IMG/VR virus record: IMGVR_UViG_3300021959_000478
Location: 1-21,611 of that record
Length of the DNA stretch: 21,611 nt
Direction: 5' to 3' (one strand)
Source of the DNA: a virus
Shown: piece after piece, positions 2,217 through 15,879 of the stretch
How the letters are laid out: each line of letters opens with the position of its first letter
How positions within the stretch are numbered: position 1 is the stretch's first letter
Position numbers and translations under genes: made by a program
Notes under the pieces: generated by a model
Seen by the model: only the letters and a program-made list of their open reading frames with translations
Told to the model about the DNA's origin: nothing
The model's database searches: none

Positions 2217-2419
2217 TATCTTTTAAGCTTCTGATTAATTTACAGGGTGACCTGATAACAGAGATGAGTATGCTGCCAAAAGATAAAATAAACAAGGTAT
2301 TTAAAAAAGAGGATGCCCCGCTAATTCATAAAGCAATTAGCGAGGCTGAGTTAAAGTTGGAGGGATTACACAAATATCTTGAGGATGAAATTTGTGCTTT
2401 TAATAACTCCAGACTGTAG
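2201..2419 (+). CDS. Hypothetical protein (72 aa) overlapping the 3' end of nrdB
   Basis: A 72-residue ORF overlaps the last 16 bases of nrdB in another frame and is preceded by a good AGGAG site. The product is Lys/Glu-rich and predicted helical in its second half (KAISEAELKLEGLHKYLEDE), with no cysteines, membrane segment or motif that I recognise. An internal ATG at 2264 would give a 51-residue form, but its upstream signal is weaker. It is the last + strand gene, and its stop lies 20 bases inside the 3' end of the convergent M15 peptidase gene. Function is unknown; a helical bundle or small regulatory protein is possible. Confidence 0.6.
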   Translation: MEGNLISFKLLINLQGDLITEMSMLPKDKINKVFKKEDAPLIHKAISEAELKLEGLHKYLEDEICAFNNSRL

Positions 2420-2756
2420 GGCGAATGCCTTCGTCTAGGTCATCGATGTGGATGAAGCGACCCGAGCCTTTCTGGTTAATACCTATACCAGTAAACCCGG
2501 AGTTGATAGCAGCCTGTACTAGCTTATAGGCGTTCTCGTGGGTTACGCCTATATCAATTGCACGACCACTAGCATGTGCGCCCGGAGTAGACTTTTTAGC
2601 TTCTATTGGGTGTTCCGGGCAGCGATATGCGCTGGTGACGGGGAAGGGAAACCCTAACTCTTCACGCAGCTTCTCTACTTTCTGCATGAAGTCTTCGTTC
2701 ATGCCACTCTCCCCGCAGTGGGAGCATTTCAGTTCATTCTCTGTGAAGTACTTCAT
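2400..2756 (-). CDS. Peptidase M15-type (M15A / DD-carboxypeptidase-like) protein, probable endolysin
   Basis: A 118-residue peptidase M15_3-type domain protein, likely to cut cell-wall peptides at lysis (or during entry if packaged). Counting from the chosen start, the metal-binding and catalytic pattern of the family is visible: TSAYRCPEH near 41-49, H61 and D68 in HASGRAIDIG, H103 in FIHIDD, and the closing RPTVWSY. An N-terminal CxxC (KCSHCGESG) is an extra pair typical of many phage and bacterial relatives. The start is the ATG at 2756, which overlaps the stop of the giant gene as ATGA. A start three codons earlier (2765) is possible but less natural. There is no signal peptide, so export would need the holin about 13 kb upstream in the same strand block. 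An endolysin role is inferred; zinc peptidase family membership is well supported. Confidence 0.9.
   Translation of the reverse strand: MKYFTENELKCSHCGESGMNEDFMQKVEKLREELGFPFPVTSAYRCPEHPIEAKKSTPGAHASGRAIDIGVTHENAYKLVQAAINSGFTGIGINQKGSGRFIHIDDLDEGIRPTVWSY
2411..2436. terminator. Weak hairpin at the convergent gene junction
   Basis: A small inverted repeat surrounds the + strand stop. AGAC (2411-2414) pairs with GTCT (2433-2436), and AGGGC (2418-2422) pairs with GCCTT (2427-2431, one G-T wobble) around a GAAT loop. There is no T-tract on either strand, so it is not a classical intrinsic terminator. It is listed because it sits exactly where the two convergent operons meet and could slow both transcripts. 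Confidence 0.2.
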
Positions 2757-5700
2757 GCTGCACAAGCCTTCATGACCTTACCGCCACGCCCACGTTTCTG
2801 TCTCTTGACTATCTTGGGATAGAATATCTTTCTATCTCTTTCTGCTTCTTCAGGAGTGTTGTATCCTTTGACAATACCTTTGTCAATTAAAGGCTTCCAA
2901 CGATTAATAATGTTGTCATAGCCTTTTATCTTTTCCCCGGTGGCTGGATCATATCCGGGCAGCAGGTATTCCTTACCGTTATACTCAACACCAGTAATAA
3001 ACATAGTCATAGTGTCCCCGTTATCCTTCCTTGCTTTATCCTCTGCGATAACAGAATCATGGAATGCCTGAAAGAACTGTGCATTTTCTGGGTGAATAAG
3101 ACCGCCTTCTCTGTAGCCATGCAACTCCTGACTTTGGGCGGGAGTCATGTACCTAGCTTGCTGCTCATTTATTAACTTGGTTATGCGCTCTTCTGCTTCA
3201 GCCCTGTCTTTAGCTTGCATTGCAAACCCAAGGTTGTTGTTGAACTGATCCATCTCCCGTTCAGGGACGTTAGATATAATTTCTCTAGCGTTGATAAAGA
3301 ACTTAGCTGCATCAGGACGCTTAGAGTTTTTAGCCAGCCAGCCTAAAGCAAGATGTCTAGCTGCATCTCCCCGTCCGTCCATCTCTTCCTTCTGTCCATA
3401 CTTCTTACCAAGAGAGTTAGCCCACTGGATATCCTCTGGGGTCATGCCAAAGAAACGAGTAGCTTGTGTACCTGCTACATTAGCACCCTTCCTTAGTTTG
3501 TTGGCAATAGATTGGAAGATAGACTTAGCTATTTTACCGCCTTCAACATAGTTACTTCTAGGATCATTTATATCAAACAATGAGGCATTGAAGGTTTTAA
3601 ATTGGTTTGGTCTAAACAGTATGTAAGAGTAGGGGTCTTCTCCGGGGCCGGAAAGTTCAACCTTATTCATATACTTGATAGAATCAAATCCTAACTTTTC
3701 TAACTCTTCTCTAAATCTTTTAGAGAATGCCCACATTTTTAATCTGTCTAATGGGTCAGAAGATTTTCCAACAATACCAGAAGCTAAAATATCTTTTGCA
3801 AGTTGATCTAAACCAGCCAAAGCTGCGCTTCTGTTTTTATCTGACATGTTAAGCAATCTAGCAGACTGTTCAACAATTGCATTAATAGTATCTCTTCTTT
3901 CTAATGGGTCACCCAATCTAGAATAAACATCCCAATGCGCACCATCTTTTAATTCAAGAGGATTACGAACTTGTATATATCCTTTCTGGACAGCTATTGG
4001 TTTAATAAATTCTGCATCTTTAGCTACATCTGACTGATCTTTAAAAAACCTATCTGTTTGTTCTTTAGTAAAGATAGCCCCTGTAAAATCTGGCATATCC
4101 CTTCTATCGTACATGGCTTGTCTAGCTATAATATGAGAACTTCCTGAAGAACCTACATGCATACCTATTTCATCAGAGCCAGCTATTGCAAGATCAAATT
4201 CAGTATCCTGTCCTGAACTAGTTGCCCTGTAAACAGGTTCTTTTTTATCTGACCTTTCGGTGTATGCTTTCCTACTTTCATTTCTAGATGCTTCACTCAC
4301 AACAGGCGGGGTGTAATCTGAACTAGTAATTTGTGGCATATCGCCAAAAACTTCATCTATCATATCCATAATTTCAGGATTGTTCTTGGCTTCTAGTTCT
4401 AATAAATACATATCCTCCCTTATAGACTCAACTTTAGGATTAGGGATTTCCTCACCCTGTTTTGTTCGGGTAATATAAGGTTCTGTTACTGCCTCTTCAT
4501 AATTAGTTATCCGACTTAACGGACTACCTTCGCCTGTCTCCCCAGTTATTTCTTGGAACACTTCATTCAGGTAATCATTAGCTTCATCAAACTGATAGTC
4601 TTCAGGATCAGTTACTTTATCTAAATCAAACTTAACTTTTGTTTCTTCTATAGCTGTAGTTAAGCCGTAGAAAGAATCTTCATCTAAGTTAAAATATTTT
4701 GGGTTAGCAATCTTATCTAAAGGTTCTTCGCTAACTAAAGCTTTTCTTAAAAACTTACTTATGTTTTTAGAAACACCCTTTGCAATTCCACCAGTAACAA
4801 AGCCCTGACGATCTTCTTCATCAATAAAAGCAGTACCCGCCTGTTCGTTGTAAGGCATGCCTGTCATCTTATCTATACGTTCATCAGGTTCTTCAGGTAC
4901 TTTAGGAACATCTAGTACAACACCCCCCTTGGCATACAGGCTAAAGGGCTTCTCTTCCTCGGGAGTTAATGCCTCTTTGATTTTTTTATCTGCATCTCTT
5001 AGGAATTTTCTATAGCCATCTAAAGCTTCTTGCCCACCTACTGTAGATATTGCACCGTAGCCGGGAACTTTTGTTCCCGCAAACTCTGCAATGTTTCCTG
5101 TCCTAACTAACTTTAATGCATCACCAGCTAAAGGCCCAAAAGGAGCAGCTATATAATTTATAGCACCAGTGTCATAATATTTGGCACTGGTTTGCGCCCT
5201 CTGAAACATATCAAGATAAGAGCCAGCACCGCCCCAGCGCAAGAATGCTTTTTGATATGCAGCTGCTGGCCCCTCTTCTTCGCTTGTACCATGGCTTCTA
5301 GCCCAGTTAGTAAACCTAGCTGTCTCGGTCATAATGTAAGCAGCAGCAAATGTTTTAGGCACATTACCCACGGGGTTGTCCACCATTTTGCTAACAGCTT
5401 TTTTAAGAATAGTATTTGTAAACGCAGCCGGATAACCCATTAACAGGAAAAACACACTAGACTTAGGATTAGAATGTAGCAAGGGCTTCAAGCCGGAGGC
5501 AGCTGATGGGTTAAGGATAACCTCATTGGTGTATCGTCCTGCGCCCTTTTGAATTTGCTGCATAAAAGGATCGTCAGTTTTCATACCGCCGTTGTACCAA
5601 GCCAGCGCATCATCTACTTTAATTCCAAACTCAGCTAACTCCCTGCGCTTGTTCATTATGCGTCTGCTTGCAGCCAGCCCCTGATTCTGTCCGATAGCTT

Positions 5701-12052: not shown

Positions 12053-14995
12053 TTATTTTACTCCGAGCATCCCGCCAATTATATTAAATAACCTATCGAT
12101 ACCACTAGTGCTGCCTGTATCTCCAATACCCGCTTCATTAGACAAGGCGGTTGCATACAGTGTTGTTTTACGCTGCTGTTCATTTTCATATGCAGTTCTA
12201 GCATATGTAGCTTCGTCCCGCAACTGCTGCCATATATTGTTTAATTCGGCAGTAGTTAAACCAAACGCCATCTGAGCAGCAGCTTGGTTAGATGCATTTT
12301 GGGCGGCAGTGTTAATTGTGTTAGCCTGTCTACGCCATTCAATATTAGACTGCTGAATTGCCTGTGCGTTCTGTGCATTCCAGAGTTCACGTTGCTGATC
12401 CATCTGTGCATTGAACTGGTCTAGCTGTGTGTTTAACTGGTTGTTAAACTTAGCAACATCAATTGCGTTGCCAGCGTTTATAGCGGCAGTTCTGTTTTGT
12501 TCAGTAGCATTAAACTGAGCCATTGCATTTGTTTGGGCAGTATTAAACTGGTCTATTTGCGCACCCAAGTTAGCCATAAACTGCTCGGCTTGCATCTGAG
12601 AAGTTGCATTAAATTGGAGTGCAGCATTAGTAGCAGACTGATTAGACAACAGCCGCTGCTGCGCTATCTGCTGGTCAAGAACGAGGGCTTGCTGTTGGTT
12701 AGACAAGTTAGCCATATCAAGCTGCAAAAAGTTCTGGGCATTCTGTATTGCTATTTTTGTACGTTGATCGGCTGTAGCCAAATCCATTGAGGCCATAGCT
12801 GTTGCATTCTGCATAGCAGCTTGCTGCCTAGCATTCATGTTAGCCAAAGTGGTTGACTGCATAAACTGGCTGTTGGCAAGTTCAACCTGCTGTGCTGCAT
12901 TAAATTTATTTAAATCTATATTAGCAACCATAGTTGCATTTTGCACTGCACGTTGCTGGTCAACATTCAGCTGGGCTACGTTAAGCTGCTTTGCAATTTC
13001 GGCAGCAGCTAAATTTGTCTGCATACGGGCATTCAGGTTAGCTAACTCAGTCTGCTGTGCTGCACTAAGATTGTCTGCACTTGCCTGATTAAGCGCGGAG
13101 AGGTTAGCCAGCCTTGTCTGCTGTTCTGAACTAAGATTAGCTAATTCCATCTGCTGTTTAAACTCAGCATTCTTAGCAAGAAACTCCGCAGCTGTTTGGA
13201 ATTCAGCAAGCTTGGCCTGATTATCCGCAGACATATTAGCCAAGTCGGTCTGGCTTTCAATCTGAAGATTGGCTAACTCAACCTGCTGTGTGTTAGACAG
13301 GTTCTGTGCGTTCATTGCTTGCTGGTTCTGCGCATTAAGTTCGGCAGACCTCTGCTGGTTCTGTAGGTTCTGTAACCTAACCTGCTGTCCTTGTTCAGCT
13401 GTAGCCATAGTAGCTTGCTGCCTGAACTGACTCTGCAACTGAGCCATGTCGTTAGCCATCTGGGCGGTCTGGCTTCCAGCGGTCTGCTGATTAGCAAGAT
13501 TCTGCATGCGCCTTGTCATGTCTAACTGAGAAGATTGTAGATTAGCCTGTTGCTGGTTGGACAGGTTCTGCGCGGCCCTAGCTTGTAGTGCTTGTGCATT
13601 AGACTGTGCAATTGGCAGCGCACTCTGAATAATAGCATTGAAAAGTGAATCACGGCCTACAGTAGAAGCACTCATGCCCCTCTGGGCTAGGTTCTGTTCA
13701 ATAGCAGCTACCGCAGGTTTAGCCCAAGCAGGAATTTCACCAGACTCTAAGCCACCAAGAAGTGTTTCCATCTGAGAAGACACAAGGGCTTCGGGCGGGA
13801 GTGCTGCAACAGCTGCCCGTACTTCAACAGGCTGATTATCCAGCTGTGCCTCAACTGTGGCGGGGTCATCAGTAATAGCAGCAGTTATTGCTTCGGGTAT
13901 ATTACCAACCTGCGCTACCATTGTTGCAGCTTCGCCTTTAGCTGCCGCGCCTTTAACTGCCCTAGCCTGAGATGCTGTGTAACTAATCTTATCTAGTATC
14001 TGCGCTTCAACACCAGAGGGGGCAGTACCAGTAATAGCCTGACGTTCCTGCTTTTCTGCTTCCGGGGTAGGTGCTAAATTAACCTGCCCTACAGTTACTC
14101 CCGGCACAAAAGCATCGGGGCTGATGGTGTAGTCTGCTACCCCCGCTTTTGCCGCTTCAACTTCTGCTGCACCTACTTGCGCAGCCTGTGCGGGTGCGCT
14201 TAGTGTTCTAATTTCATCTACAGTTATTGGAGGACGAGCAACACCTTGAGCAGCTGTAGTTTTATTTAACTCTTCGACTAGTGATGCTTGATACTGGGCG
14301 GGAGTTATTGTTCCCTGCTGTAATGCAGTTTTTACATTTGCAACAGCAGATGTGAACTGAGAAGCGGATACACCCTCCGGGGGAGTTAAACTTGCAAACT
14401 GATCTAACTGCTGTATGGCAGAGTCGGGAGTAATACCAGTTGCAATATCAACTTGAGATACTTGTGGTTTTAAATCAGAAACTATTTGCTGAACAGGCAA
14501 AGTGCGCCTTTCTTCTGCTGTTCTTGTATCTTCTACTGGTTTAGGAGTATCAGAAGAAATTCCAGAAGGGATAGCAGGAGTACCAGCACCACCAGTATTA
14601 GTACCACCAGCACCAGCATTAGCACCAGCGCCACCAGTATTAGCACCACCAGCACCAGCACTACCAGTTGCACCGTCCATAGCACCAGCGGCTCTAGCAG
14701 CATCAGCAGCAGCTATATCAGCCAATCTTTTTTGCTCTGCTGCCACTCTAGCATCAGCTTGCTGTTTTGCTAAAATATCAGAAGCTGTCTTAGAACTAGT
14801 ACCTGTTCCTTTAGCAGCCGATCTTTCAATAGCCGCTTGAATTTTGGCAACAGATTGGCCTGTCTCCCTGCTTATATCTTCTAGAGTTTTTTCGCCTGAC
14901 AGATAAGCTTGTGCAAGTGCTGCAACCGAGCCGCCAGCAGCATAATTGGAACGCTTAATCCCGCTTCTTACACGGTTGTATTTAGCTTGTGCCAT
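12053..14995 (-). CDS. Long Gln/Asn/Ala-rich hendecad-repeat virion protein (980 aa)
   Basis: No catalytic motif is visible; this is a structural protein with clear architecture. Residues 1-65 form a small folded segment containing AAGGSVAALAQAYLSGE. Residues 104-140 are a Gly/Ala/Asn/Thr linker, followed by a Pro/Ala/Thr-rich region to about 400. WAKPAV...AQRGMSASTVGRDSLFNAI (424-455) is a block I recall from other marine phages. Residues 461-900 are about 40 consecutive 11-residue repeats with no phase break, consensus Q-V/T/A-x-L-A-N-L/A-x-x-x-Q, with Asn at repeat position 6 in 29 of 40. The last 80 residues (FGLTTAELNNIWQQLRDEAT and a closing LFNIIGGMLG) are non-repetitive. An 11-residue period fits a continuous straight or right-handed coiled coil. 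An AAGG site supports the start, which overlaps the preceding 60-residue gene by 14 bases. Likely an internal, tail or tape-like component. Confidence 0.9.
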   Translation of the reverse strand: MAQAKYNRVRSGIKRSNYAAGGSVAALAQAYLSGEKTLEDISRETGQSVAKIQAAIERSAAKGTGTSSKTASDILAKQQADARVAAEQKRLADIAAADAARAAGAMDGATGSAGAGGANTGGAGANAGAGGTNTGGAGTPAIPSGISSDTPKPVEDTRTAEERRTLPVQQIVSDLKPQVSQVDIATGITPDSAIQQLDQFASLTPPEGVSASQFTSAVANVKTALQQGTITPAQYQASLVEELNKTTAAQGVARPPITVDEIRTLSAPAQAAQVGAAEVEAAKAGVADYTISPDAFVPGVTVGQVNLAPTPEAEKQERQAITGTAPSGVEAQILDKISYTASQARAVKGAAAKGEAATMVAQVGNIPEAITAAITDDPATVEAQLDNQPVEVRAAVAALPPEALVSSQMETLLGGLESGEIPAWAKPAVAAIEQNLAQRGMSASTVGRDSLFNAIIQSALPIAQSNAQALQARAAQNLSNQQQANLQSSQLDMTRRMQNLANQQTAGSQTAQMANDMAQLQSQFRQQATMATAEQGQQVRLQNLQNQQRSAELNAQNQQAMNAQNLSNTQQVELANLQIESQTDLANMSADNQAKLAEFQTAAEFLAKNAEFKQQMELANLSSEQQTRLANLSALNQASADNLSAAQQTELANLNARMQTNLAAAEIAKQLNVAQLNVDQQRAVQNATMVANIDLNKFNAAQQVELANSQFMQSTTLANMNARQQAAMQNATAMASMDLATADQRTKIAIQNAQNFLQLDMANLSNQQQALVLDQQIAQQRLLSNQSATNAALQFNATSQMQAEQFMANLGAQIDQFNTAQTNAMAQFNATEQNRTAAINAGNAIDVAKFNNQLNTQLDQFNAQMDQQRELWNAQNAQAIQQSNIEWRRQANTINTAAQNASNQAAAQMAFGLTTAELNNIWQQLRDEATYARTAYENEQQRKTTLYATALSNEAGIGDTGSTSGIDRLFNIIGGMLGVK
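12296..13615 (-). repeat. Array of about 40 in-phase 33-bp (11-codon) degenerate repeats
   Basis: Coding repeat region for residues 461-900 of the 980-residue protein. Units such as QVELANLQIES, QTRLANLSALN and QTELANLNARM dominate the first two thirds. Units of the form xxxQFNA (QIDQFNTAQTN, AMAQFNATEQN, QLDQFNAQMDQ) dominate the last third. The repeats are conserved at protein level and diverged at DNA level. Confidence 0.85.
14576..14686 (-). repeat. Low-complexity Gly/Ala linker (imperfect triplet and hexamer repeats)
   Basis: On the + strand this reads as runs of ACCAGC, ACCAGT and ACCACC units. It encodes the GAGGANTGGAGANAGAGG-like linker at residues 104-140 of the 980-residue protein. 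It is a likely slippage-prone flexible linker; the shadow ORFs on the + strand here are artefacts of it. Confidence 0.7.
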
Positions 14996-15474: not shown

Positions 15475-15879
15475 TTATTTCCTATCGACTTGTTTAACTT
15501 TCTCAACTGTCCTCATTGCGCCTAATCCTAACATACCTAAAAGTACAGGCAACAAGGTTTCCATGTCAATTAATGGAATAGCTACATCATATTCTAACAA
15601 TTCTAGAATCATATTGGTAAAGGGAATTGTAATAAAATTACCTGCCATACCTAATACACAGACCCAACCTACGGCGGGTCGCCAGCCCGAAACAAACAAG
15701 GAGGGATGTTGTGCCTCTGCCTTGTTTATTTCAAGCTGGGCTTGTACAACTTCATGTGCATGTTTCTCAGCCATTGTGGCTATGTCATGCGCAATCTGGG
15801 CTTTCTGGTCTTTGTCTTCTATGACTTTATCCAGCAAAGCTGCCACAGGCCCGGCTAAACTACCAATTAAATTAAGCAT
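15475..15879 (-). CDS. Holin of the 3TM (gene-transfer-release) type
   Basis: A 134-residue membrane protein matching the Holin_3TMs family (GTA-type). An N-terminal hydrophobic segment (IGSLAGPVAALL, 5-16) is followed by an amphipathic helix rich in Ala, His and Glu (25-56). Next is the family hallmark LFVSGWRPAVGWVCVLGMAG (61-80) leading into a membrane helix, then a third hydrophobic helix (LLPVLLGMLGLGAM, 109-122) and a basic tail. It would make inner-membrane lesions that time lysis and release a muralytic enzyme, here probably the M15 peptidase. Its ATG overlaps the TAA of the DUF6127-like gene (TAATG), so the two are coupled. Family assignment is strong; the lysis role is from family knowledge. 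Confidence 0.9.
   Translation of the reverse strand: MLNLIGSLAGPVAALLDKVIEDKDQKAQIAHDIATMAEKHAHEVVQAQLEINKAEAQHPSLFVSGWRPAVGWVCVLGMAGNFITIPFTNMILELLEYDVAIPLIDMETLLPVLLGMLGLGAMRTVEKVKQVDRK

Follow-up and report, generated by a model that had tools for sequence, protein, structure and literature searches.

E0, a protein of short-tailed marine phages, carries an uninterrupted array of 11-residue repeats (hendecads) whose length changes by whole repeats only. It is here proposed, with about an even chance of being right, to be an ejected, length-quantised alpha-helical DNA conduit. The computed basis of this proposal comprises the repeat itself, its strict quantisation, the helix predicted for a short relative, the pattern of the helical wheel and the gene neighbourhood; virion location, oligomeric state, lumen and conduit role are what we infer from it. 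To our knowledge, the passage of DNA across two membranes by short-tailed phages is understood in few models only, and a strict 11-residue quantisation would provide a direct genetic handle on the mechanism of a helical conduit.

Repeat array of the window protein

The window, i.e. the whole stretch of DNA that was analysed, is a virus record of 21.6 kb, and its features are listed in Table 1. For the segment 12296-13615 on the minus strand (E0 residues 461-900) an original prediction, made from this DNA alone, had claimed about 40 rows of eleven residues, 29 of which have Asn at position 6, together with Gln at positions 1 and 11, and Leu or Met at position 4 in many rows. Recounting gave Asn-6 in exactly 29 of 40 rows, Gln-1 in 23, Gln or Asn at position 11 in 26, and Leu or Met at position 4 in 19. 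The periodicity analysis proposed as a check returned a sharp signal in strict phase: identity was 0.22-0.25 at lags 11, 22, ... 77 and ~0.10 at other lags, and in the best 100-aa stretch of E0 period 11 reached z = 12.9, while the other tested periods stayed at or below 6.5. The hendecad phase is constant from residue ~458 to residue ~895 and is lost outside. The spacing between the two flanking motifs, PIAQ and QSNxxWRR, is 423 aa or 11x38+5, and the array comprises ~38-39 hendecads without interruption. A change of row type from LANL to QFNA toward the C-terminus, also described previously, is real. The conserved head motif in front of the array reads ALVSSQMxxLLGGxExGxIPxWAxPAVxxVxxxLAQRGMSxSTVGRDxLFNAIIQSA.

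Table 1. Positions of the E0-E4 genes, of the parts of E0 and of neighbouring features in the window
Feature	Position	Strand	Basis or remark
M15 peptidase (endolysin) gene	2400..2765		13-base overlap with the end of the E4 gene
E4, 1897 aa	2753..8446	-	relatives match T7 gp16-type, endolysin and LPD38 models
E3, 623 aa	8458..10329	-	poorly conserved; position as in relatives
E2, 195 aa	10343..10930	-	conserved PIPGQSLT motif
E1, 372 aa	10932..12050	-	Lys-rich amphipathic N-terminus; Gly/Ala-rich hydrophobic segment
E0, 980-aa protein with hendecad array	12053..14995	-	ORF and homologues; gene 1 of the E0-E4 block
Conserved C-terminal domain of E0, QSNxxWRRQ...LWQxxRD...	12053..12346	-	E0 residues 884-980; alignments
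In-phase hendecad array	12326..13615	-	E0 residues 461-890
Units ~27-38, C-terminal core of the array, ~12 hendecads, QFNA-type rows	12362..12757	-	unit alignments; limits approximate
Units ~3-26, length-variable N-terminal part of the array	12758..13549	-	unit alignments; limits approximate
Conserved head motif	13616..13813	-	E0 residues 395-460; alignments and helices in the AlphaFold2 model
Array-flanking motifs in E0			PIAQ at residue 461; QSNxxWRR, its N at residue 884
YAAGGSV, a YxxGG(x)V/I-type motif	14895..14955		E0 N-terminus
GTA-type three-transmembrane holin (PF11351)	15475..15879		upstream of E0

Quantised length and growth of the array in the E0 family

Relatives of E0 were found by tblastn in phages of the HMO-2011 type (Puniceispirillum phage HMO-2011, Pelagibacter phages HTVC103P/104P/115P/033P and Roseobacter CRP phages) and additionally in Vibrio phage CHOED, Aeromonas phage MQM1, Pseudoalteromonas phage Slicky01, Sinorhizobium phage phiM6 and Rhizobium phages. 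The records of these phage relatives name a hypothetical protein, except for a few that lack annotation or are misnamed. Two scans of viral contigs yielded 152 additional E0 loci, and two more copies, both with n = 14 hendecads, were found within bacterial genome assemblies by profile search. The latter lie in n = 14 E0 blocks, one in the alphaproteobacterial assembly AG-899-M17 (L167) and the other in L168, and give a hint to the host of the short class. Searches of E0 against Pfam, PHROGs and PDB sequences as well as fold searches gave no convincing match.

All relatives have in common a head motif (...IPxWAxPAV...LAxRGMSxSS...SALPIAQ) and a C-terminal motif (QSNxxWRR...LWQxxRD). Both were placed by HMM, and the distance between them was taken as the array length. 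This length equals 11n+5 in 148 of 148 homologues taken from phages and viral contigs, which represent 131 distinct arrays and 21 lengths between 148 and 1083 residues (n = 13-16, 20, 21, 27, 28, 30, 32, 37-42, 48, 58, 68, 78 and 98). Within clades the length is conserved, and n = 38 is represented by 51 distinct arrays. The flanks of E0 are not quantised; their N- and C-terminal lengths are spread across all residues modulo 11. Moreover, all 3963 of 3963 44-residue windows lay in a single phase, compared with 7% of shuffled windows, with a phase profile that was trained on the same arrays as were scored but that forces the phase of no window. Since every window is in phase, compensating shifts within the arrays are excluded. 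Indels of other than multiples of 11 residues in homologues, which the original prediction had named as evidence against itself, are thus missing from these arrays, and its observation is confirmed and strengthened across the family. With 98 units, the longest array of the family may rank with the longest uninterrupted hendecad arrays known.

In order to follow the growth of the array, the forms were aligned unit by unit. Short and long forms alike keep the C-terminal domain and the final ~12 hendecads, and the extra units were added near the N-terminal end of the array; units ~3-26 of the window protein are absent from short homologues and block-duplicated in long ones. Super-repeats of five units are seen in forms of at least 48 units and super-repeats of two units in the forms with n = 30 and n = 40. 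One long form (L129) contains segments that match each other at up to 95% identity at a spacing of 20 units. Together with six further forms (L046, L130, L132, L049, L047 and L061) it makes up a set of arrays with 68-98 hendecads (753-1083 residues) and super-repeats of 5, 10 and 20 units. On a tree of the flanks, 31 changes of length were inferred, 14 of them by 10 units or a multiple thereof, a count left soft by the weak support of the tree; a single-unit change is represented by n = 37, which is n = 38 minus one unit. Growth of the array is accordingly accounted for by block duplication. The growth by duplication suggested in the original prediction is consequently seen as duplication of whole units, in blocks of 10 or 20 in the long form named above. 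To account for the absence of partial units, a structural cause or, at minimum, strong selection for register is required. A structural quantum of 10 units was considered in view of the changes in tens and rejected, since duplication of 10- and 20-unit blocks suffices without it.

Predicted helix, gene neighbourhood and candidate roles

For a 14-unit relative (L143), AlphaFold2 with ten sequences predicted a single helix of 224 residues (residues 53 to 276) with a central pLDDT of ~92. The 38-unit array of the window protein was modelled as nearly all helix with breaks, at a pLDDT of ~40-60 and with low confidence in the overall shape. Of the continuous helix claimed previously, the part borne out is therefore the helix of the 14-unit homologue, whereas a straight rod of 38 units is not supported by the model. 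Foldseek searches against solved structures (PDB) and viral models (BFVD) returned nothing similar to E0. At 0.15 nm per residue a straight array would measure ~22 nm at n = 13, 63 nm at n = 38 and 162 nm at n = 98.

Taking 11 residues as three turns and averaging over the array, the helical wheel shows four faces: an uncharged amide face at position 1 (Gln 52%) and position 8 (Gln/Ser/Asn/Thr), a seam A at positions 5, 9 and 2, a charged face at positions 10 and 3, and a seam B at positions 7, 11 and 4. On this wheel the direction of Gln is 327 degrees and that of charged residues 165 degrees. Two opposite hydrophobic seams with one uncharged and one charged face are what an alpha-helical barrel would be expected to show. 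For the big hydrophobic residues the first harmonic is ~0.01 and the second 0.33, and a first harmonic near zero with a strong second one indicates two opposite seams, not a single core. The array accordingly has the 11-residue periodicity at 3/11 of a canonical hendecad coiled coil (dimer to tetramer) and lacks its single core stripe. Asn-6, which had been thought to be buried, sits on the outer margin of seam A beside the charged face, and its burial is not established. Bulk is carried on seam B by the LANL rows and on seam A by the QFNA rows. Across units, the side-chain volumes of opposite seams are anticorrelated (positions 5-7, r = -0.49; positions 7-9, r = -0.36), as would be expected if seam A packs on the seam B of a neighbour at equal level. 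In a stricter coevolution test within unit positions, with position means removed, the three most negative pairs all ran from seam A to seam B, and the set was not significant (p = 0.15). As the seams lie almost 180 degrees apart, the wheel would fit a ring of ten helices no better than a flat sheet or a ring of very large size. Two folds were rejected: a single-core coiled-coil stalk is ruled out by the two-seam wheel, and a beta-solenoid with an Asn ladder is contradicted by the Ala/Gln/Leu-rich composition with scarcely any Gly or Pro and by the AlphaFold2 helix.

Across loci, E0 is followed in nearly constant order by E1 (65-480 aa), E2 (~190 aa), E3 (330-900 aa) and E4 (800-1960 aa). The proteins at the E1 position in relatives match phage tail lysozyme, SLT (transglycosylase) or Gly-zipper models. 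Among 26 E4 proteins, two match phrog_342 ('internal virion protein with endolysin domain') and eight an endolysin family, and others match lysozyme or glucosaminidase models. The neighbours of the E0 gene thus include a gp16-like giant protein of the internal virion type and domains that cleave peptidoglycan. In view of the gp16-type and endolysin matches of E4 and the lysozyme and transglycosylase domains of E1, the most probable identity of E0 is that of an ejection (internal virion) protein, and its assignment to an ejection block, made from gene order and domain matches, is held with high confidence. The E2 family is present at nearly every locus with an almost invariant PIPGQSLT; E2 matched no known family in PHROGs or PDB. 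Motifs of the YxxGG(x)V/I type stand at the N-terminus of E0 also in relatives (MSKGGRV, YRKGGRV) and cluster in the C-terminal fifth of E4 (YSTGGIV, FAKGGEV) in 79 of 101 E4 proteins. They are similar to FATGGxV in siphophage tape measures and are possibly a packaging or processing tag.

In the proposed conduit, the array of this putative ejection protein would form one long alpha-helix, and several copies, probably about ten, would associate as an alpha-helical barrel of parallel helices in register. Seam A (5, 9, 2) of one helix would pack against seam B (4, 7, 11) of its neighbour, the uncharged amide face (Gln-1 and Gln/Ser/Asn-8) would line the lumen and the charged face (3, 10) would point outward. 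The barrel would be ejected together with E1-E4 and help to form the conduit by which DNA crosses the cell envelope, on the principle of the tube of phiX174 pilot protein H. Length would evolve by whole hendecads only, because any other change rotates the head relative to the C-terminal domain and breaks both seams. A straight barrel of 38 or 98 units would be too long for any Gram-negative periplasm and about as long as the capsid interior or longer, and the long forms would thus have to bend, fold back or additionally serve another purpose.

The excess of the long arrays over the periplasm is also what speaks for the main rival of the conduit, a core rod inside the capsid. E0 would then be stored around the portal or above it, with its helical array organising the core or the DNA, and E3/E4 would form the trans-envelope channel. 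The evidence from the gene block applies equally to this arrangement, and ejection proteins are known to change form between virion and ejection (PMC10925440). An uncharged amide face opposite a charged one and the register match with protein H described below are, however, better explained by a lumen, and the longest forms, if straight, are too long for the capsid as well; a core rod is considered a lesser, though serious, possibility. An array folded back into antiparallel segments, as a compact or lattice-like bundle or sheet without a lumen, appears rather unlikely. Two opposite hydrophobic seams suit a flat helical sheet too, the 5- and 10-unit super-repeats of the forms with at least 48 units could mark its segments, the many length changes in tens would fit, and the 38-unit model shows breaks, at low confidence. 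Against these points, the array shows neither a turn signal of Gly/Pro nor a break of phase at any point, the confident model of the short form is one helix, and the super-repeat is accounted for by block duplication.

Hendecads are known from right-handed coiled-coil stalks, and a trimeric or tetrameric stalk of this kind on the tail, as an external fibre or needle, could in general carry such an array. Stalks have one hydrophobic core, though, while E0 has two opposite seams, and its gene lies among internal virion and endolysin genes, away from fibre genes; this assignment is regarded as improbable. A tape measure, in which the number of units sets the length of the tail, would make sense of a length that is strictly quantised and conserved within clades. 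Known members of the family are podoviruses, though, and phage MQM1, with a capsid of 70.6 nm, has a tail of 9.2 nm (PMC10410586), with which its array of n = 16 and ~27 nm does not agree. For practical purposes this tail length rules out a tail tape measure, which is given very little credence. Among the roles named in the original prediction, the conduit is therefore the one favoured, by gene neighbourhood and by a wheel pattern in common with the phiX174 H tube, and the tail-measuring rod is the one abandoned.

Comparison with known ejection proteins and with phiX174 pilot protein H

The homologues of Puniceispirillum phage HMO-2011, Pelagibacter phage HTVC103P, Roseobacter CRP phages, Vibrio phage CHOED and Sinorhizobium phage phiM6 are true members of the E0 family, with the same head and tail motifs and with quantised arrays of n = 13-28. 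The array of the window protein is longer (n = 38), and the records of these homologues state neither function nor repeat.

Other short-tailed phages build conduits from ejection proteins (PMC9509320, PMC10925440), which differ in form within the virion and after ejection (PMC10925440). T7 gp14-gp16 and DEV gp71-gp73 are ejection proteins in an analogous role (PMC10925440), and in phage SU10 five adjacent ejection proteins, one of them a transglycosylase, lengthen the tail across the periplasm (PMC9509320). The late block of T7 (gp14/gp15/gp16) ends in the giant gp16, as the E0 block ends in a gp16-like giant with lytic-domain relatives; T7 gp14-gp16 differ in having neither hendecads nor detectable similarity to E0, and the E0 block has five genes. 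The block of Kuravirus SU10/phiEco32 resembles E0-E4 in its five adjacent genes, a peptidoglycan-cleaving protein and a giant last protein, whereas the phiEco32 counterparts have no 11-residue periodicity and no similarity to E0. More broadly, hhalign of E0 against the ejection proteins of T7 (gp14/15/16), P22 (gp7/20/16), LUZ24, N4 and phiEco32 gave probabilities <2% with single-sequence targets, i.e. no homology was detected, and no 11-residue periodicity was found in these proteins.

In phiX174, ten copies of pilot protein H make up a tube of 170 A length that is lined by amide and guanidinium groups, and the hendecads of this protein are QKELTKMQLDN, QKEIAEMQNET and QKEIAGIQSAT (PMC7354561, Table 1). 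Scored on the E0 profile, they gave no more than -12 bits in any of the ten mismatched registers, and the matching one reached +12.7 bits. This score was attained by 1 of 10,000 shuffled sequences (P = 1e-4) and by 1.8% of column-permuted repeats (P = 0.018), and among ~1480 non-H sequences only fragments of E0 equalled it. In identical register, both proteins have Gln at 1 and 8, an acidic residue at 3, Leu or Ile at 4 and a hydrophobic residue at 7. The lumen-type amide positions of H are therefore present in E0, and in both proteins an amide face lies opposite a charged face. H comprises three hendecads, a transition segment and eleven heptads, whereas E0 consists of hendecads throughout (13-98); no switch from hendecads to heptads in the style of H occurs in E0, in which every 44-residue window keeps the 11-residue phase. 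H belongs to an ssDNA microvirus and E0 to dsDNA podoviruses with different flanking domains. There is no overall homology between the two, which are probably convergent, and the register match would, from the repeats compared, reflect a shared design rather than common descent.

The register match supports the general proposal by which amide-lined helical tubes would be a widespread solution for DNA passage. More tentatively, and with some doubt, short-tailed dsDNA phages may have independently evolved an amide-lined helical DNA tube by the 11-residue code of phiX174 H, with a strictly quantised free length of ~20 to 160 nm and a reach tuned by whole hendecads, often ten at once. H serves genome delivery, and a like role is here proposed for E0, a podoviral ejection-type protein that may be likened in its working to this unrelated known device.
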